Of a stretch of 25,455 bases of DNA, positions 1-25,455 are shown in pieces. Every line of letters starts with the position of its first letter. Position 1 is the stretch's first letter. The notes beneath the pieces are model-generated. The model was not told where the DNA came from, did no database searches, and saw only the letters and a program-made list of their open reading frames with translations. The DNA comes from a virus. The position numbers were made by a program, and so were the translations under genes. Location: the IMG/VR virus record IMGVR_UViG_3300048589_001572, positions 1 to 25,455 of that record. One strand, 5' to 3'.

Positions 1-915
1 TTACTTATTAATTTCTTCTGAGTTTTGATTTACAAGGAACTTCTTGTAAAGAGCATCCAGTTGGTTATACACCATATGTTCCTTCGTACTCTCTCCTCTC
101 TTTCCTTTTGCGTTCTCAATAGCTTTGGCATCTTTTCTATCAAGCGAAGAAAAAAACTTTACAAATGTAGACTCAAAATTATAGAGTTCATCAGCTGGAG
201 TTTTAATAAACTTCTGGATTATCCAGTCGATTATTATTCGGGTTTTTAAAACCTTCTCATCCAATGTTGACATTGCTGCATCAAGAAGGTTCTTCCCTCT
301 CAAAATACCTGCTTCTGTGTCTTTTGTGAGTTCATCTGAGATCTCACCATTCATTGCTTTTGCAAGAATAGTTTTATTTATTTTATTGTGAAAAGTGAGC
401 CACTTACAAGCAGCATCTAACGAATATCCTTTAGAAGTTAATTCGTTAATACCGTTCAGTAAAGGAATATCCTGTGAACAAAGCATTTTAGCTCCTTTAC
501 CGTAATCGCTGCCTTTCCAAGCAACTGTAGCTGTGTTAATCTCTGAGAGCATTCTTGGGATGCTCAATTCAGAATTCAGAGGATACATAAGGAAAAATTC
601 CTTGTTGTACTCAGCATCATTTGCTGTCAGCTCAAGGTGAGCTTGATACCTGTGGTTGGCATCAATAAGCACTACATACTGCGATGCATTTGCTTCAGTT
701 ATAACTTCCTTAGAAGTAAAATCAATTACTTCCAGTCCTGATTTCAATGCATCAGCTGCATCTACTATAACTGCTGGGATTAGTAACCCATTTGACTTCA
801 TAGAAGTCTTTTTTGACTTAACGATCTTTTCGTTAAGGTTTCTGTTACCAGAAAGTCTGGCAACTTTTTTACCTTCATTTTGAAGGTTCGATAACTTTAT
901 TACTTGTTTCATCAT
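1..915 (-). CDS. ParB-like N-terminal domain protein
   Basis: A 304-residue protein ending in TAA. The N-terminal half resembles the ParB/sulfiredoxin-type nuclease fold: an NR motif near residue 24, a segment ending GLLIPAVIV at about 43-51, and then VLIDANHRYQAHLEL at about 82-96, which matches the family's D-G/N-H-R-x-x-A motif. The C-terminal half is helical and charged and I do not recognise it. Such proteins occur on plasmids and phages of Bacteroidota, where they may act in partition, DNA binding or nicking; which applies here is not decided by the sequence. All three Trp codons are TGG and there is no in-frame TGA, unlike the structural genes. Translation may start at either of two adjacent ATG codons. 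The leader carries a palindrome at 949-958. Fold assignment is fairly sure; function is not. Confidence 0.75.
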   Translation of the reverse strand: MMKQVIKLSNLQNEGKKVARLSGNRNLNEKIVKSKKTSMKSNGLLIPAVIVDAADALKSGLEVIDFTSKEVITEANASQYVVLIDANHRYQAHLELTANDAEYNKEFFLMYPLNSELSIPRMLSEINTATVAWKGSDYGKGAKMLCSQDIPLLNGINELTSKGYSLDAACKWLTFHNKINKTILAKAMNGEISDELTKDTEAGILRGKNLLDAAMSTLDEKVLKTRIIIDWIIQKFIKTPADELYNFESTFVKFFSSLDRKDAKAIENAKGKRGESTKEHMVYNQLDALYKKFLVNQNSEEINK

Positions 916-948
916 TTTTATTATTTGATGATTTCTTTTATTCTTTCA

Positions 949-958
949 TCACCGGTGA
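949..958. promoter_or_regulatory. Palindrome TCACCGGTGA in the ParB-like gene leader
   Basis: A perfect 10-bp palindrome, extended by outer arms TTTCA and TGAAA (945-960), lies about 35 bases upstream of the ParB-like start codon. The outer arms resemble those of the classical parS site, which has TTTCAC/GTGAAA around its centre. It could be an operator or a ParB-binding site; both are inference. Confidence 0.35.
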
Positions 959-1014
959 AAGATTCCAGGTAATTAAGTAAAAAGATGTGCACCTCTTGTT
1001 CCTTGATTACGGTA

Positions 1015-1022
1015 CAAAAGTC
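1015..1022 (-). promoter_or_regulatory. Weak candidate promoter for the ParB-like gene
   Basis: Read on the minus strand this is GACTTTTG, a 7 of 8 match to the Bacteroidota -7 element TAnnTTTG. It sits about 100 bases before the ParB-like gene in the only sizeable gap on this side (916-1080). No convincing -33 TTTG is seen, so this is tentative. Confidence 0.25.
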
Positions 1023-1080
1023 TGGACAATAAAAACCACTAAAAATGAGTGAAAAAAAAGTATTTTTTACTCTCGATTAA

Positions 1081-1887
1081 TTACATATATTCAATGACGA
1101 ATTTGTCAAATATAGTTGAATCCTTATACTGATTTAAGAATCCGCTGAGAGTATATTCTGATTCTAAAAAGCTTTCGTTAGAACTGAGTTCAACTAGGTA
1201 TATTAGCTTAGAAATAAGTAGTTTCTTGCTATAAGAGGTATAACCATCTTTCTTTTTTCTGATGTTATTAGGAGGAACTATGTCAAAAAACATCATAAAC
1301 ATAGTAGCAAAAAACCAAATATGATATGAGTTAGAATTTTCTTTTCTAATAGTAATATCATTGTGTACTGGAGATAAAGATATTGATGTTCTTTCACCAG
1401 TAATATCAATGTGTACTTTAATAATATTTCGGATTAATTCCAAAGTTCGTTTCTCCGTTATTTCTACCTTTTTCTTCCCTTTAACTCTAAGAGTTAATTC
1501 TGCTCCTTCACCAATATATCTATAAAGATCCTCTAGATATTCATACTTGTCTTTGAAGAATTCTATCTCTCTTTTACAAGCACAATAACTATAGTCATTA
1601 ATGTAAAGTAGTAAATACCAAAACTTGTCAAAATCATATCCTAATGCAGTAATCATCTCTTGAAGATCTTCATCATCTTCAAATTCATCAATAAAAGATG
1701 TATCAATCTTGTTGTCAATATACCTTCTATTAAAATTTTCATATGCTGCTGAATATATATGACTCATATAATTATTTTGGTGAAGTGGAAAATGTTTCTC
1801 TGTAAAAATTGAAACATATTCAGTCAATTCATTATAATAGTCATATTGACTATCATCAGTTGGCGGTGTAAATAGTAATTCTTTCAT
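1081..1887 (-). CDS. Unrecognised 268-residue cytoplasmic protein
   Basis: I do not recognise this protein. The open frame extends to an ATG at 1921-1923, but that codon lies in the loop of the terminator hairpin. I prefer the ATG at 1885-1887, giving MKELLFTPPTDD and 268 residues. The product is rich in Tyr, Phe, Asp, Glu and Lys, with an acidic stretch (DEFEDDEDLQE, about residues 71-81). A Cys-containing segment (YSYCACKRE) lies near residue 107. One hydrophobic stretch (WFFATMFMMFF, about 190-200) looks more like a buried helix than a clear membrane segment. Both Trp codons are TGG and no TGA occurs in frame. It lies just beyond the terminator that closes the structural operon, so it is probably an accessory gene. 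A TATTTTTG stretch at 1893-1900 could be its promoter, but it lies within T-rich DNA. Confidence 0.7.
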   Translation of the reverse strand: MKELLFTPPTDDSQYDYYNELTEYVSIFTEKHFPLHQNNYMSHIYSAAYENFNRRYIDNKIDTSFIDEFEDDEDLQEMITALGYDFDKFWYLLLYINDYSYCACKREIEFFKDKYEYLEDLYRYIGEGAELTLRVKGKKKVEITEKRTLELIRNIIKVHIDITGERTSISLSPVHNDITIRKENSNSYHIWFFATMFMMFFDIVPPNNIRKKKDGYTSYSKKLLISKLIYLVELSSNESFLESEYTLSGFLNQYKDSTIFDKFVIEYM

Positions 1888-1903
1888 ATACACAAAAATA
1901 ACA

Positions 1904-1934
1904 GAAAAGCCTGTAATCATCAAGATTACAGGCT
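1904..1934 (-). terminator. Hairpin terminator closing the structural operon
   Basis: An 11-bp perfect stem, AGCCTGTAATC (1908-1918) with GATTACAGGCT (1924-1934), encloses a 5-base loop. Read on the minus strand it starts just after the TAA of the holin-like gene and is followed by TTTT and a second T-rich stretch. Read on the plus strand it is followed by CTTTTTT, so it may act in both directions. Confidence 0.75.
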
Positions 1935-17733: not shown

Positions 17734-18075
17734 TTATGCTAGATAAATTGATGTTGTTCCTTCTACTATCTCATTGTATATTCCATCAGTAAATGAAGCA
17801 TTAGCAACCTGTATATGATAAGAGTATTTTAATAATCCTCTTTCTAGTTGATCAAGCTCTGCTGAATTTAGTATTGCTGAATCTTGTGTTTCTCCAGCAA
17901 CTATTCCAGTATAAGTTTCATTCTCATATTTGCACTCAATAGATGATTCTATGCTCTTAGTATAAAATTTAATGCTGAAATATGTTACATCATTTACTCT
18001 GTAAGGATTTCCAGTTTTATCAATTAATGAAATGTTGAGTTTAACATCACTTCCTTTATAAATTCTTTGTGTCAT
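17734..18075 (-). CDS. Baseplate upper/tail protein, beta-sandwich type
   Basis: A 113-residue protein beginning MTQRIYKGSDVKLNISLIDKTG and continuing YFSIKFYTKSIESSIEC, GLLKYSYHIQVANASFTDG and EIVEGTTSIYLA. The K-G-x-D-V-x-L start with alternating strands resembles the N-terminal domain of baseplate upper proteins (BppU-like) that attach fibres to the tail. It overlaps the end of the portal gene by 20 nt and precedes two fibre-type genes. No Trp. The family assignment is moderate; a structural role is likely from context. Confidence 0.75.
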   Translation of the reverse strand: MTQRIYKGSDVKLNISLIDKTGNPYRVNDVTYFSIKFYTKSIESSIECKYENETYTGIVAGETQDSAILNSAELDQLERGLLKYSYHIQVANASFTDGIYNEIVEGTTSIYLA

Positions 18076-19264
18076 TTTCTGAAGTGTTAGGTTGATTAAC
18101 GGCTCTATCTAAGGTTTGTGTGTTAACCTGCACAAAAGTATGATCACCATTTTTTAATGCTGGAAGATCAATTTCCTTTCTTATTTCATTAGGTGAAATA
18201 ACTCCGATCTGGAATAAAGTATTGTAGTATGCTGCTTGTGATGCTTTATCTGCTTTTAAAAGTGCTGCAGAATTGAATTTTACATCAATCTGAGATCTTT
18301 CTGATGGTTTATATAGCTTCCTCTTAAATTCTAATTCAATCTTCTCCAGCATAGGAGCAATTGTATCAGTTAGGAATGCTAATTGTGTAGCTTCAACTGT
18401 TGAATAAGATGATTTACTAAGATCAAATGCTTTAACAGGTGATACGCCAAAGAATCTACATATATCAATAACATTAAACTCTCTTGTTTCCAGTAATTGT
18501 GCATCTGATGGACTTACAGTAATAGGTTCAAAAGACATATTACCTTCAAGAACTGCAACACCGTTTGGTGTTCCATTAGAAGCATTAAATGCTGTTTGTC
18601 AAGATGCTTTTAAAGCTTTTATTTGATCATCAGTAAGTGAACTTTCAACCTTTAAAATACCAGCTAAATTTGCTCCACCTTTAAAGAATCCAGCAGCGTG
18701 TGCTTCTGAATCTGTAGACAGTCCTAATGTTAATCTTGCGTGTGTTAATGTGGATACTCCGATAATTCCATTGTAACTAAAATTCAAAATATGAATCATA
18801 TTTATTGGTTCTACCAAAGTCTTCATACCAGTAACACTATAAGAAAGTTTCCCATTTTCATATATTGGAGTTACTAGATCTGCTTCTATGAATCTTAATC
18901 ATTTTACATCACCATTCTTTTCTCTTTCAATATAAGCGTATCCATTACCTTTAAGTAGTACACTTGTTACTAGTGTTTTTATGAAAGTGAATCTGCTCAT
19001 TAATGAGTTTGGTTCATAATTGAGTAGATTGTATGTTGGGTGATTTATAAACTTTGACTTGTATCCTTGTTCATCTATAAGATAAGGCTCAAGCGGTAAT
19101 TGAGCTACTGCATCACTTATCACATCTACACATCTGTAAACTGCTGATAGAAGTAGTGCTTTATTTTGTGTATAACTACCAGAACCAGAATACATCAAAG
19201 AATCAAATATGCTGCTTCTTTTTTCTTCTATTGGTGCTGATTTCTTTTTTGAAAATATTCCCAT
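18056..19264 (-). CDS. Portal protein, HK97 family
   Basis: A 402-residue protein, split into three under the standard code by TGA at codon 122 (GDVKWLRFI) and codon 222 (KALKASWQTAFN). The start MGIFSKKK, then ALLLSAVYRCVDVISDAVAQLPL (split around residue 44), NPNSLMSRFTF-like text at about 85, KGNGYAYIER, and CRFFGVSPVKAF at about 269-280 are all typical of HK97-type portals. LKADKASQAAYYNTLFQIG and ISPNEIRKEIDLP form the usual C-terminal helices. It makes the dodecameric ring at the packaging vertex. It starts 2 nt after the TerL stop. The length is typical. Confidence 0.95.
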
Positions 19265-19266
19265 AA

Positions 19267-21918
19267 TTATATTGTGATTATTCTGTTTTTATATCTAGGA
19301 TTGGTTAAATATCCACCTAGTGCCATTAGTATAGCAATTACTCCATCTATCTTTTTACCTTCTACTTGTTTCTTAGGTTTCACATTACCGTTATGATCTG
19401 ACTTTAATACTACATTTCTAAAACAGTACCTAGTAATTTCATTAATGTCAATTACTGCATTATTTGATAAGATTAATCTTTCAAGCTCTCTAGTAGGTTT
19501 ATTAAAGTTTCCTATTGTTTGAGAATACGGTTCAAGTGGTAAACCTTGTTCAGTTGAAGTAATTGCTCATTGTGTAGAGTTCCAATTATCATAATAGATC
19601 TTCTGAATACTGACAATTTTAGAAGCTGCTTTTATATCATTTGTTATATAATCATAGTCTGTAACATTACCACTTGTAACAGTAAGGATTCCCTGAGATC
19701 TTCAATAGTTGTAAAGCTCTTTATTAGTCTTTTCTTTGAGTGCCGATTCTGGAAGATAGTAATGGACTTTAAAGTGATATTTTCCTTCTTTATCAATAAT
19801 TAGGAAACATAAAGCAGTTAAGTCTGATGTAGCAGCTAAGTCTACTCCGATATAACAGGCCATTCCTTTAAACTGATTTAAGTCTACTTGATTAGTACAC
19901 TTCAAAATATAATCTTCTGGAAGCCATACTTGAGCACTATCACACCATTGATTAAGTGTTTTAGTTCTAACTCCAACTTCATCAGATGGATTGTTCTTTG
20001 CTCTTTGAACTTCACCTTTTATAAATTCTTCCTTTACAGTAATATTTAGATTGGGAGTACACTTAATCCAGTTGTCTGGATCTTTTCAATCATCATCTGA
20101 ATCCATTGAAAAAATAGCAGCAAATAATTCATCATCTTTCTTTAGTCCATTAAGAACTTCAATAGCTACTGATCTGTCTTGATAACAAGGATTCTCTTTT
20201 GAAAATCCAGCAGTAGTAATAACTGCTAAGTGTGGATTCTCTCTCATAGCCATTGATGATTTGATTACATCTTTAACTTTAGATGTTGGTGCAGCGTGAT
20301 ATTCATCCAGTAATCCAAATGAAGCATTGAATCCATCAAGCTTTGTATCATCAGCTGCAAGAACCTTTAAACTACTTTTTGTGAGATCAAATAAGATATC
20401 TGCTCTGTAAGTTGTTAGATATTTACCTTTTGGATCTAATCCTTTTGCAAAGTTTGAACACATACCAAAACAGATTTTAGCCTGTTCTTTAGAGTTTGCA
20501 GCAAGTAATACTTCTGCTCCATCTTCACCATCAGCTATTAAAAAGTAAAGAGATAAAGCTGCTGCTAGGGCTGTATTATGAGTAACAGTAAATTTCTTTC
20601 CACATAAATATAGAGATTCAGGATTATCAACTGAGATACATTTTACAGGAACAGATTCTATAGGCTGAATATCAATTATTGACTTATATAGCATCCGTTT
20701 ATTTAGATTCTCTTTTAACCTGTCATATTTTCTTTGAAGTCTAAAACAGGGTAGGTTTTTGTCAGTATAGAATGTTATTCTTTGTACTTCATCACATTCT
20801 TTACCATTACAAGTAGGAATTTTAGTTATTCGATTATACTTTATTCCTAAAGTGCTTAATAATTCACAAAAACCATCAGCTATTAATTTATTCTTCTGTA
20901 TAAATTCACATTGACCAGCTTTAGAAACAGTACCATCAGTATCCATTAAACCTTGAACTAATGCTAATCTTTGTTCCTTACTGGCTCTTAGATAGATTTC
21001 TGGAATATGTTTATTATTAAATACTCCAGCTTCAATTAATTTATGTCTAAGCTTGGAGTTGTTCTTGCCTTTATCACCTGCGAATGATACATTTAAAGTA
21101 TTAGTTCCCTTTTTATTATATAGCTTGTATTCTCCGAATTCAGCAACTAAGCAATCATACATATTTAAATCATCAGTTGATACTGTGAAATCTGGTTTAG
21201 ATGAACTTCCATCTCCTAATCATAATCCTAAAAAATATGGTTCTAATGGTAGTACTTTCTCTGGAAGTTCTAATGGTTTATTTACAGGAACTCTATATCT
21301 ATATTCAATTCCTTTTTGATCTTTTCTATTGTGTTTAAAGTTTAATAAGTCTTTAGTTGTTAAGACTAATTCTTTATCAACATCTTTTTTCTTTATTTGT
21401 CATTGATGATCAGCATCTGCAATTATTTCTTCACCATCCTCAAATGTTACTTTGAAGCAATTTCTATTATATTGGACTGGAGTTACAAATGTTACTGTTG
21501 TTGGTAAACCATTTTTATCTAAAACAATATCTCCAACTTTGAGATCACCCATTATTGTGAAACCAGTTGGAGTTGGAATAGGAGTGTCTAAACTTAGTGC
21601 TTTCCCGTTTTTTCTGGATACTTCTATATAGGAACTACTGAATCTTCTTACTCCAGTTTCTTTCCTGTAAAATCCTAGAATATTAGCAACTATTCATTCT
21701 TGTCAAGGCTCTAAGATAAATGCATTTCCAGAGTGCCTTCCTGTAAAGTGTTTAAGTGTTCCAATAAATTGAATTGCATCATCAACTACAGATTCATTAA
21801 ATATCAAATCATCCCTTTCTAAATCACTTAAAAACCTTTTACAAGCAAGTTTAATAGTTTCTCCTGCTATGATTGTACCATTAATAACATCTTCTGCATA
21901 TTGATAATACTTCTTCAT
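19267..21918 (-). CDS. Terminase large subunit interrupted by an intein
   Basis: An 883-residue precursor; removal of the 342-residue intein leaves a 541-residue terminase of normal size. I chose the ATG at 21916-21918, 1 nt after the TerS stop; the frame extends to an upstream TTG. N-extein: FILEPWQEWIVANI (both Trp are TGA, codons 72 and 75) and SRKNGK, the first part of Walker A, where the intein sits. C-extein: TALAAALSLYFLIADG, Walker B FGLLDEYHAAP, ITTAGFS as coupling motif, and nuclease-domain acids in YIGVDLAATSDL, IYYDNWN and KIDGVIAI. Further TGA-coded Trp are at codons 611, 739 and 784. Phage packaging ATPase and nuclease of the HK97/Terminase_1 group. The P-loop is formed only after splicing. 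Confidence 0.96.
20575..21600 (-). other. Class 3 intein with LAGLIDADG endonuclease in TerL
   Basis: A 342-residue intein inserted between Lys and Thr of the terminase P-loop. It starts ALSLDTPIPTPTGFTIMGDL (block A, with Ala instead of Cys/Ser at position 1) and ends FTVTHN before extein Thr. The class 3 triplet is present: Trp in ADADHQW (block B, residue 67), Cys in PVKCISVDN (block F, residue 321) and Thr in VTHN (block G, residue 340). The block F Cys would be the first nucleophile. The central part has the two LAGLIDADG helices, LGLWLGDG (residues 124-131) and LVQGLMDTDG. Both intein Trp residues, including that of the triplet, are TGA (21400-21402 and 21220-21222). The homing endonuclease looks intact, so the element may be active. 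Confidence 0.92.
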
Positions 21919-21919
21919 A

Positions 21920-22309
21920 CTACCTATTTTCAACTACTGGTTTTTTCTTCTTAGCAAATTGTTCTAAAGGTGATTCTTCATCTTTCTTTTCCATTGATGG
22001 TAATTTCTTTCTTGCTTTAGCAGTTAAGCCAAATTCACCCATTATTTTCATTGCCTGTACTTGTGCATCTTTAGCTACTTTGATCATAGGGTGTGCTTCT
22101 AGATTACCCTTATTATTTGTGATCATCATTCCATCTTTCTCAACTTGTTTAGAAGCTCTAATAAATGTTGAATAGTTTCTTGCTAACATAGTTAATGCAG
22201 CACTATCAACATTCTCCATTACACCTCTATCTTTTAGTTGCTCCAGAACATCTTTCATATATTCTGCTGCTTCTTTTTCAATGTCTTTTGGTATTACAAA
22301 ATCTTTCAT
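21920..22309 (-). CDS. Terminase small subunit (P27-like)
   Basis: A 129-residue helical protein ending in TAG. VDSAALTMLARNYSTFIRASKQV (about residues 34-56), the NNKGNLEAHPMIKVAKDAQVQ stretch (about 65-85) and FGLTAKARKKLPS (about 93-105) follow the pattern of P27-family small terminases: the N-P/H-P-x-I-K-x-A segment and GLTP/GLTAKAR. It recognises phage DNA and hands it to the large subunit, whose gene starts 1 nt later. No Trp. The gap to the preceding gene (22310-22355) holds only A/T-rich sequence. A near match to the Bacteroidota -7 motif (TATAATTTG, one base too long) overlaps the upstream stop. Confidence 0.9.
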   Translation of the reverse strand: MKDFVIPKDIEKEAAEYMKDVLEQLKDRGVMENVDSAALTMLARNYSTFIRASKQVEKDGMMITNNKGNLEAHPMIKVAKDAQVQAMKIMGEFGLTAKARKKLPSMEKKDEESPLEQFAKKKKPVVENR

Positions 22310-22355: not shown

Positions 22356-23405
22356 TTATATACTAGCAATTTGTTTTAGTTTATATATCTCAAATAACTT
22401 TTCTATAAATAATTTTATCTTATTTGGTTCAGTAATACCTTCTATTCGAGCTGAGAAAAATACAAAATATGCCAAATCAAACTTCATTAATAAATTAGTT
22501 TCTTTTAAATAATTAATAAGTTCGTTAGATCCTTCTTTACTTACTGAATAGTATAAAATTAGAACTAATTCTGGAGTTGTTATTTGAGAAATAAAAAATT
22601 GAGAATAATATTTTGGATTTGTTGAACTATGAGCAAATTCCATAATATTTAGAATATTACTAATGTATGCACTAAAAATATGACCGTATATTCTTAATAA
22701 AGAATTAGCAGTATAATTGATTATTTTAAATGAGTATGAATAAAATTCCTTGTTGCTTTTCTTAGACATTATTTCAACAGCCCAATCCAGATAACTTACA
22801 AATGTATTTTTATCTGATTGTAGGATCTTCTTTGGAATTTTAATTGATTTTATATGTACATAAAATCTGATAGCCATTTGCAATTGTAAAAGTGACAATT
22901 GCTCTGATTCTTTAGATAATGTTTCCGAAATTCCCTTAACTAATTCATCATAAAAAATTAATTCATCTTTTATATCATCAATTTTATTGCTTATGATATA
23001 ATCGTAAATTATAGCAATTATTGTGTGTTCAATTATAATATCTCCAATTGCTACATCAGAATTAATATCTGCTACTTTAATTTGTAAAACAGAAGCTACT
23101 TGCTTTTGATGTAATTCGATATGTTTAAAGAATAGTGATCTTTCTTCATTTTGCTTAGATTGTTTTCTAGATTCATTGATTGAATACAAAACACCTGCAA
23201 AAGCTAGTAAACCAGTAATTGAACCTAAGTAAGATCCAAAATATGCCCAATCACTAGGTTCATCTGAAGTTCCATTAGCTGCAAATTTTATAACATATGC
23301 AAATAACATCACAACAACTACTACTAAGATAAAAATGATTGAAACTTTCAAAACATTATTTTTAGTATAGTCAATAGTTCTATCAAACAAATTTTTGGAT
23401 TCCAT
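22356..23405 (-). CDS. Two-TM membrane protein, putative abortive-infection type
   Basis: A 349-residue protein with two N-terminal membrane helices: about residues 19-42 (VSIIFILVVVVVMLFAYVI) and about 54-76 (FGSYLGSITGLLAFAGVLYSI). A charged helical segment (NESRKQSKQNEERSLFFKHI) and a long cytoplasmic domain with many Ile and Lys follow. W-x-x-FGSYLG-S before the second helix and the Q-rich linker with FF-x-H-x-x-LH-x-x-Q resemble the putative phage abortive-infection family (PF16872-like). It lies upstream of TerS on the same strand and may be transcribed with the late genes from the promoter at 23450-23457. Both Trp codons are TGG and no TGA is present, unlike the operon that follows. 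Exclusion of other phages is a guess. Confidence 0.8.
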   Translation of the reverse strand: MESKNLFDRTIDYTKNNVLKVSIIFILVVVVVMLFAYVIKFAANGTSDEPSDWAYFGSYLGSITGLLAFAGVLYSINESRKQSKQNEERSLFFKHIELHQKQVASVLQIKVADINSDVAIGDIIIEHTIIAIIYDYIISNKIDDIKDELIFYDELVKGISETLSKESEQLSLLQLQMAIRFYVHIKSIKIPKKILQSDKNTFVSYLDWAVEIMSKKSNKEFYSYSFKIINYTANSLLRIYGHIFSAYISNILNIMEFAHSSTNPKYYSQFFISQITTPELVLILYYSVSKEGSNELINYLKETNLLMKFDLAYFVFFSARIEGITEPNKIKLFIEKLFEIYKLKQIASI

Positions 23406-24166: not shown

Positions 24167-24428
24167 GTCAATTAATCGAATAGAAAGAATTAAAGTATAT
24201 AATTCTAAAAGATGAAAGAAGCTCAGGGTAGTAAAACTTATGAAAGATCCTTTGTGTGAAATGTGTTTACAGAAAGGAATAATCACTCCAGCTATCGATG
24301 TGCATCACATAATTTCGTTTATGATTTATGAAGGTTTAGAACGATCTGAGAAAGCTTATAACATAAATAACCTAATGTCGATCTGTAAAATCTGTCACCA
24401 GAAAGAGCATTCAATTATAGATATTTAA
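24129..24428 (+). CDS. HNH endonuclease
   Basis: A 99-residue phage HNH nuclease. KRWKKLRVVKLMKDPLCEMC (about residues 28-47) is the classical start, with Trp encoded by TGA at 24213-24215. PAIDVHHIISF gives the first catalytic His pair. NNLMSICKICHQKEHS gives Asn, the second Cys pair and the final His; the two CxxC pairs bind a structural zinc. Such proteins often sit beside terminase genes and help cut concatemers at packaging. Here the gene is about 1.8 kb upstream of TerS and on the opposite strand. It overlaps the upstream gene by 38 nt. Its last 14 bases overlap the end of the convergent pentapeptide-repeat gene. Confidence 0.92.
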
Positions 24429-25455
24429 TACCTTTCATATTCTTACATTCTCTAAATTTTAGATTGTCAGAATTTTTAAATTTTTTATTAATAAATGTTT
24501 CAGTAAATGAATCTACTCCGTAGAACATATTGTCATTTATAAAGTTAGAAGATTGGAAGTTACATATGGCAATATGAGAGGGGCAGATATTAGTATTACT
24601 AAACGATGCAAAACTAAATTCAAGATCTTCGAATTTTTCTCCATCAAATTCTACTTTTTCAAAAATGGAAAACCAAAATGTGCAATTATTAATTAATGAC
24701 ATCATTTCTCCTATTTCAACTGAATTAAATTTTGCATAATCAAAGCTACAATCACTAATATTTTTGTAAAAATTACATCTAAAAAATTCAGAATTGTCGA
24801 ATGAGCAATTACTTATATTGTTATTAAAATCAATAAACTTAAATTGAGTATTAGACAATTCTAATCTTATCCCAACAAAAACCCTATCAGAACTAAATAA
24901 TAAATTAATTATTGTTTGTATTGTAATAGGGGCTAAAATAGAAAGTTCACTTTTCTTATCACTACTTGTTTCATAATTAAGTTCACTTTTCGTCTTTTCT
25001 TCAACTTTTTTATATAGTGCCTTTGATTGATCTTTTAAATAACTTGTAAATAACCCAGCAACTATTGGTGTGTATCTATCATCTTCCTTAGCTAGTTGAT
25101 ATAGTGCATAAATACCACCTAAAACAATTGAAGTATTTTCACTTCCAAGATATCCAATAGCTTCACCAAATCTTTTATCAGCATCATATGATTTTTGATC
25201 TAGGTTTCTATCTTCAACCAGTTTATTTTGTTTGTTCTGAGCTTTGATCCTTTGACTATTTATCCATAAACCATAAATAATTCCGATACCACCAAGTACA
25301 GATAGAATAACTTTAAAAAATTCTCCATTTGGATTATCCTTAGTAAAATTTGAAGCTATATCCGAGTAAAAATAGCAGAAGACACCAAACAAAATTACTA
25401 TACCCAAAATACAGATTCCTTTGTGCTTTTTCCAGTACTCTTTAATATCATTCAT
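24415..25455 (-). CDS. Pentapeptide-repeat membrane protein
   Basis: A 346-residue protein with two N-terminal membrane helices: about residues 14-31 (ICILGIVILFGVFCYFY) and about 49-65 (VILSVLGGIGIIYGLWI). A charged coiled-coil linker (RIKAQNKQNKLVEDRNLDQK) follows. The segment KRFGEAIGYLGSENTSIVLGGIYALYQLAK (residues about 94-123) is a conserved block found in many two-TM pentapeptide proteins. The C-terminal half carries degenerate A/C-x-F-x-x pentapeptides (CSFDNSEFFRCNF, CSFDYAKFNSVEI), expected to form a right-handed beta-helix. The three Trp codons are all TGG. It starts exactly at the right edge of the window. It may be a defence or superinfection-exclusion moron; function is unproven. 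Confidence 0.88.
   Translation of the reverse strand: MNDIKEYWKKHKGICILGIVILFGVFCYFYSDIASNFTKDNPNGEFFKVILSVLGGIGIIYGLWINSQRIKAQNKQNKLVEDRNLDQKSYDADKRFGEAIGYLGSENTSIVLGGIYALYQLAKEDDRYTPIVAGLFTSYLKDQSKALYKKVEEKTKSELNYETSSDKKSELSILAPITIQTIINLLFSSDRVFVGIRLELSNTQFKFIDFNNNISNCSFDNSEFFRCNFYKNISDCSFDYAKFNSVEIGEMMSLINNCTFWFSIFEKVEFDGEKFEDLEFSFASFSNTNICPSHIAICNFQSSNFINDNMFYGVDSFTETFINKKFKNSDNLKFRECKNMKGIKYL

Follow-up and report, generated by a model that had tools for sequence, protein, structure and literature searches.

A predicted class 3 intein with TGA-encoded Trp residues in the terminase P-loop of a TGA-recoded Bacteroidota phage

The gene for the large terminase subunit (TerL) of a tailed phage raises the question of what element interrupts its P-loop, and of how TGA codons came to occupy Trp positions in that element, one of them in the residue triplet that defines a class of inteins. 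The window, meaning the whole 25,455-base stretch from IMG/VR that was analyzed, comes from a metagenomic fragment and holds the late block of this phage, with terS, terL, portal, prohead protease, major capsid protein, and tape measure genes.

Interruption of terL in a genome that reads TGA as Trp

When read in code 4, terL encodes an 888-residue precursor and ends at TAA. Under table 11, the same frame contains seven internal TGA codons, five in the extein (W77, W80, W616, W744, and W789) and two in the intein, and no internal TAA or TAG. The initial annotation had placed an intein at 20575-21600 in the terminase P-loop, splitting GK from T, and translation gives exactly these coordinates, with the junctions YIEVSRKNGK/ALSLDT and FTVTHN/TALAAA (slashes mark the intein ends). 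This insertion between the P-loop Lys and Thr of a terminase_1 TerL corresponds to TerL1-a, a known intein site of mycobacteriophage TerL (PMC5050341). The genes and gene parts concerned are as follows.

21920-22309, minus strand: terS, small terminase subunit (Pfam Terminase_4, E 7e-24)
19267-21933, minus strand: terL, large terminase subunit with TerL_ATPase and TerL_nuclease domains, intein-interrupted (Pfam PF03354, E 6e-21; PF20441, E 3e-38)
21601-21933, minus strand: N-extein, 111 residues from the TTG start as called, holding W77 and W80, both TGA
20575-21600, minus strand: predicted class 3 intein, 342 residues, 1026 nt, at the Lys/Thr split of Walker A (SRKNGK/T)
19270-20574, minus strand: C-extein, 435 residues, beginning with the P-loop Thr (+1 residue)
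18056-19264, minus strand: portal protein, whose Trp222, encoded by TGA, is matched by Trp in all 10 standard-code relatives

Across the window genes, 45 TGA and 49 TGG codons are present, and the stops are TAA (27) or TAG (2), with no TGA stops. These genes were aligned to ten standard-code relatives with Trp columns masked. The columns at TGA codons hold Trp in 67 of 113 cells, with Leu next (12), and those at TGG codons hold Trp in 53 of 72. The pattern of code-4 (TGA-to-Trp) phages, with in-frame TGA at conserved Trp and TGA never a stop, is therefore present in the window, and it recurs in the independent contigs L010, L189, L198, and L192. The window phage is a TGA-recoded siphophage of Bacteroidota.

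Searches with ARAGORN and Rfam returned no tRNA with a UCA anticodon in the window or a full related prophage. Likewise, the search for a UGA-reading tRNA was negative in the window, its relatives, the complete related prophage, and two host genomes carrying relatives; one weak 29-bit match and one match at a contig end were also returned. Both host genomes encode RF2 (prfB), and their only tRNA-Trp has the anticodon CCA. Absence of a UCA tRNA is common, as only 11 of 73 code-4 phages have one (PMC11210395). The TGA codons of the related prophage cluster in its late genes (48 TGA/19 TGG vs 3/25 in other genes, p = 4e-8), and a late-gene concentration of the reassigned codon is described for crAss-like phages (PMC7886860).

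Some features of the surroundings were also recorded. Four genes that flank the late block (window 1-1923, 22356-23405, and 24415-25455) contain 0 TGA and 10 TGG codons, against 41 and 39 in the late block (p = 0.002). The gene at 22356-23405 adjoins terS and encodes a membrane protein that matches Pfam putAbiC, with a possible role in abortive infection; at its place in L010 (2660-3715) lies a different gene of similar length. Another contig, DPKJ01000005.1 from Rikenellaceae UBA12406, a host with the standard code, carries what seems to be a complete TGA-recoded prophage (about 24-58 kb, L204-L207). Its TGA codons cluster in late genes, no tRNA that would read UGA turned up in the prophage, and a serine-recombinase-like gene lies near the host prfA (RF1).

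Class 3 residues, fold, and endonuclease

Class 3 inteins are defined by W, C, and T at block positions B12, F4, and G5 and by the lack of a nucleophile at position 1 (PMC5050341). The insert begins with Ala instead of Cys, Ser, or Thr. Its Trp67 (DHQW, block B position 12), encoded by TGA, aligns to Trp67 of structure 6rix, and Cys321 (VPVKCISVDN, block F position 4) aligns to the Cys of 6rix. Thr340 occupies position 5 of block G and is followed by His341-Asn342, and the +1 nucleophile of the C-extein is the P-loop Thr itself. Across the 96 distinct full-length relatives aligned, residues H65, W67, C321, T340, and N342 never vary. The Ala1 and W-C-T assignment of the initial annotation is borne out. 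The parts of the intein are located as follows.

21376-21600, minus strand: N-terminal splicing part, residues 1-75 (Ala1, His65, and Trp67), aligned to residues 1-71 of 6rix/6bs8
21400-21402, minus strand: codon of Trp67 (TGA), first member of the Trp-Cys-Thr triplet
21220-21222, minus strand: codon of Trp127 (TGA), within LGLWLGDG, the first LAGLIDADG motif (from translation)
20934-21249, minus strand: LAGLIDADG endonuclease core, about residues 118-222 (Pfam LAGLIDADG_3, PF14528, E 6e-7)
20638-20640, minus strand: codon of Cys321, the block F nucleophile, aligned to class 3 structures
20575-20583, minus strand: Thr340-His341-Asn342, the block G end of the intein (from translation and the alignment of relatives)

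A profile built from the intein and five homologues retrieved the class 3 structures 6rix and 6bs8 (E about 1e-36), and an NCBIfam search gave only weak matches to intein-bearing proteins. The AlphaFold2 model of the intein has a mean pLDDT of 95.6 and a HINT fold, as judged from its Foldseek match to the class 3 splicing domain 6bs8 (TM 0.86 by target length); compared with the intein-endonuclease PI-SceI, the TM is 0.75. The known structures belong to MchDnaB1 and MsmDnaB1 (6rix and 6bs8; PMC7664689). In MchDnaB1, the active residues are His65, Trp67, Cys124, and Thr143, and a Cys-His-Thr triad has been proposed for the chemistry (PMC7664689). The terL insert shares the fold and this His65, Trp67, Cys, and Thr site, but MchDnaB1 and MsmDnaB1 are mini-inteins without an endonuclease and reside in bacterial DnaB. 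By its residues and modeled fold, the 342-residue insert is assigned as a class 3 intein.

The endonuclease, described initially as apparently intact, retains two LAGLIDADG motifs with their catalytic acids, LGLWLGDG (Asp130) and LVQGLMDTDG (Asp222). Among the relatives, Asp222 is invariant and Asp130 nearly so. Constraint was evaluated against a close copy of the intein, L198 (contig MKTA01000007.1, MAG 'Bacteroidetes bacterium 41-46'), which is 89% identical, lies at the same site, and has both Trp codons as TGA. The dN/dS is 0.13 for the intein and 0.12 for the endonuclease core (residues 118-300), indicating that both are under constraint. The corresponding extein values are 0.04-0.11, and the intein dN/dS against a second relative, L155, is about 0.10.

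These results bear on two readings in which the locus would be without function. If TGA were a true stop, the terL frame would be a pseudogene or an assembly artefact, and the failure to find a suppressor tRNA, together with RF2 and the lone tRNA-Trp(CCA) of the host genomes, could be cited in its favor. However, TGA occupies conserved Trp positions in several genes, never ends a window gene, and follows the same pattern in the four independent contigs, leaving this reading with a negligible probability. The intein itself might instead have decayed, its motifs kept by recent descent in a dead terL allele that no longer splices. The source is a metagenomic fragment and splicing activity is predicted from sequence, but the low dN/dS values of both intein and extein, the absence of internal TAA, TAG, or frameshift, and the retention of all catalytic residues make decay very unlikely. 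The reading preferred here is that the intein and the recoded terL frame are both functional.

TGA codons and movement of the intein

The intein contains no TGG codon. Both of its Trp residues, that of the triplet and that of LGLWLGDG, are TGA, as had been noted initially. The suggestion that relatives be examined for TGG was followed: Trp67 is TGG in 94 of 96 full-length relatives, and the only others are the window and L198 (listed as L199), both with TGA. This count excludes L292, where a TGA at position 67 falls on the margin of a partial match. L292 is one of five class 3 intein relatives, with L277, L287, L305, and L316, whose match starts only at residue 66-79; their N-terminal parts are possibly split or frame-broken, as far as the sequences suggest.

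The intein thus matches the codon usage of the phage, in keeping with the proposal that it has adapted to a recoded genome. At that usage, the chance of both Trp codons being TGA is (45/94) squared, or about 0.23, so drift is enough to explain them. It had further been argued that an active terminase would require TGA decoding. This requirement is true, but the intein TGA codons add nothing to it, as the five in the extein already impose it, and with W77 and W80 ahead of the intein, TerL would depend on UGA decoding even without it.

Intein-free alleles, also sought at the initial annotation's suggestion, were found at the same terL site in L010, L114, L191, and others. The L010 TerL is 82% identical to that of the window and TGA-recoded, and the TerL of L189, an integrated prophage of a Rikenellaceae genome, is 99% identical to that of L010, likewise recoded and intein-free. 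L198 comes from another contig and sample than the window, and its N-extein and intein have diverged more than its C-extein. DNA identity to the window (L198 900-2350) is about 87-89% in the N-extein and intein and 97% in the C-extein, the TerL C-extein protein is 98-99% identical, and the synonymous divergence is 0.56, 0.45, and 0.12 for N-extein, intein, and C-extein, respectively. The mosaic border near the intein 3' end might reflect a homing or recombination event. A more distant intein, that of L031, is 66% identical and encodes every Trp as TGG; the TerL that carries it is in the standard code, and its C-extein shares only 52% identity with that of the window. A search of the order that includes Parabacteroides gordonii, in a sample of 393 genomes that contains no positive control, yielded no such intein at E 1e-40.

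The L155 locus is informative about movement. Its TerL extein is 97% identical in nucleotides to that of intein-free L114 and 93% to that of a Parabacteroides gordonii prophage, and an intein 73% identical to that of the window sits exactly between the two extein halves. This intein uses TGA for Trp14 and Trp127 and TGG for Trp67, against 0 TGA and 9 TGG codons in the L155 TerL extein and 0 and 1 in the portal gene (Fisher p = 0.04, on small numbers). Placement of a TGA-bearing intein precisely in a TGA-free TerL that is 97% identical to the empty L114 allele points to a recent transfer from a TGA-using donor. L155 was also considered as an ordinary standard-code phage; this was dropped because L155 carries four TGA codons beyond those of the intein, of which one corresponds to TGG in L114 and another to TGG in L144. 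The simplest reading of these sequences is that a TGA-using donor recently supplied the intein to a phage line in which TGA is sparse. Separately, two Trp codons in a single tail gene of L114 are TGA, and a few TGA Trp sites lie downstream in L114 (8111-8788) and L155 (4721-5059, 5062-6921, and 7130-7546), with terL and portal free of TGA. Such sparse use is possibly an early stage of recoding.

The four nearest inteins (window, L198, L155, and L031) form one clade with support 100, and their TerL proteins fall in three separate places of the TerL tree. The Trp codons are graded, from all TGG in L031, through TGA14, TGG67, and TGA127 in L155, to all TGA in the window and L198. The order among L031, L155, and the window in the intein tree is weakly supported (85), and the few sequences suggest a change from TGG to TGA. 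On the TerL tree, the TGA label requires four changes, with at least two forced by well-supported branches, so recoding has probably been gained or lost more than once.

Two other histories can be weighed against these data. TGA at Trp67 might have been selected because it ties splicing to a late change of code, so that active terminase would appear only late. The concentration of TGA in the late genes of the related prophage, and the location of terL in the late block, would fit. However, UGA termination would halt the ribosome at W77 and W80, before the intein; the intein TGA fraction fits genome usage; and L155 has TGG at Trp67. Selection for TGA at this position was dropped in view of the codon usage and the two upstream TGA codons, and we regard such a switch as highly improbable. 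Alternatively, the intein could predate the code change in this phage line and have been lost from most relatives, with no transfer. The window, L198, and L155 inteins do sit in related TerL genes, and losses are possible; against this, only 4 of the 76 distinct TerL rows in the tree carry the intein, presence and absence are precise between L155 and L114, and the window and L031 inteins (66% identical) are closer than their exteins (52% or less). Inheritance without transfer is thus rather unlikely. The initial annotation had suggested long residence or transfer among recoded phages: movement among TGA users is upheld by L198 and L155, and residence can be only part of the account, as the L155 insertion is recent.

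Very probably, then, this is a mobile class 3 intein with its own homing endonuclease at the TerL1-a site of a TGA-recoded phage, which splices, homes, and has had its Trp codons drift from TGG to TGA. The comparisons show the sequence, its conservation, the empty and filled alleles, and the selection; from these we infer splicing, and likewise homing, Trp insertion at UGA, and the direction of transfer. In late expression, UGA would be read as Trp to give the 888-residue precursor. By analogy with its class, Cys321, with His65, Thr340, and Trp67, would attack the Lys-Ala bond; the N-extein would then be passed to Thr+1, and cyclization of Asn342 would free the intein and rebuild the P-loop GKT. 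The endonuclease would keep the element moving between phages that share the site, and ordinary synonymous drift in TGA-reading genomes would convert its Trp codons.

Comparison with known inteins and implications

Mycobacteriophage TerL1-a inteins (PMC5050341) occupy the same gene and the same point between the P-loop Lys and Thr. About 35% identity is seen with the intein of Mycobacterium phage Contagion (L008), which likewise begins with Ala1 and carries the W-C-T triplet, but these inteins occur in the standard code, with Trp67 as TGG, and in phages of actinobacterial hosts. The TerL intein of Vibrio phage 489E54-1 (OX241561.1) has the same site, Ala1, full triplet, endonuclease, and 43% identity; it differs in its standard code, with all Trp TGG. 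The crAss-like phage OBYQ01000140 (PMC7886860) resembles the window in having terL inteins in a recoded phage, with reassigned stops in both TerL and inteins, but the codon is TAG (glutamine) rather than TGA (Trp), and the two inteins are described as Hint-Hop. Neither a class 3 triplet nor transfer between codes was found in the passages of that description considered here.

The kind of element is thus already known, from the TerL1-a site (PMC5050341) and the TAG-bearing TerL inteins of a crAss-like phage (PMC7886860). In the literature cited here, no description was found of a class 3 intein with a former stop codon as its defining Trp, or of a neighbor set showing codon drift and transfer across differing TGA use. 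The recoded intein-free allele L010, the close TGA-coded copy L198, and the L155 transfer case are added here. The set of relatives (standard-code TGG, mixed, fully TGA, and intein-free) traces codon change within a selfish element and lets one ask whether a changed code limits intein spread. One tentative answer, drawn from few data points and at present doubtful, is that the code acts as a one-way gate, in which TGG inteins enter recoded phages and TGA-drifted copies pass only to TGA readers. If so, L155 would represent a TGA-loaded intein entering a line just starting to use TGA, and such inteins could favor retention of the new code. Surveys of class 3 inteins with patterns that spell Trp as TGG would miss recoded inteins.
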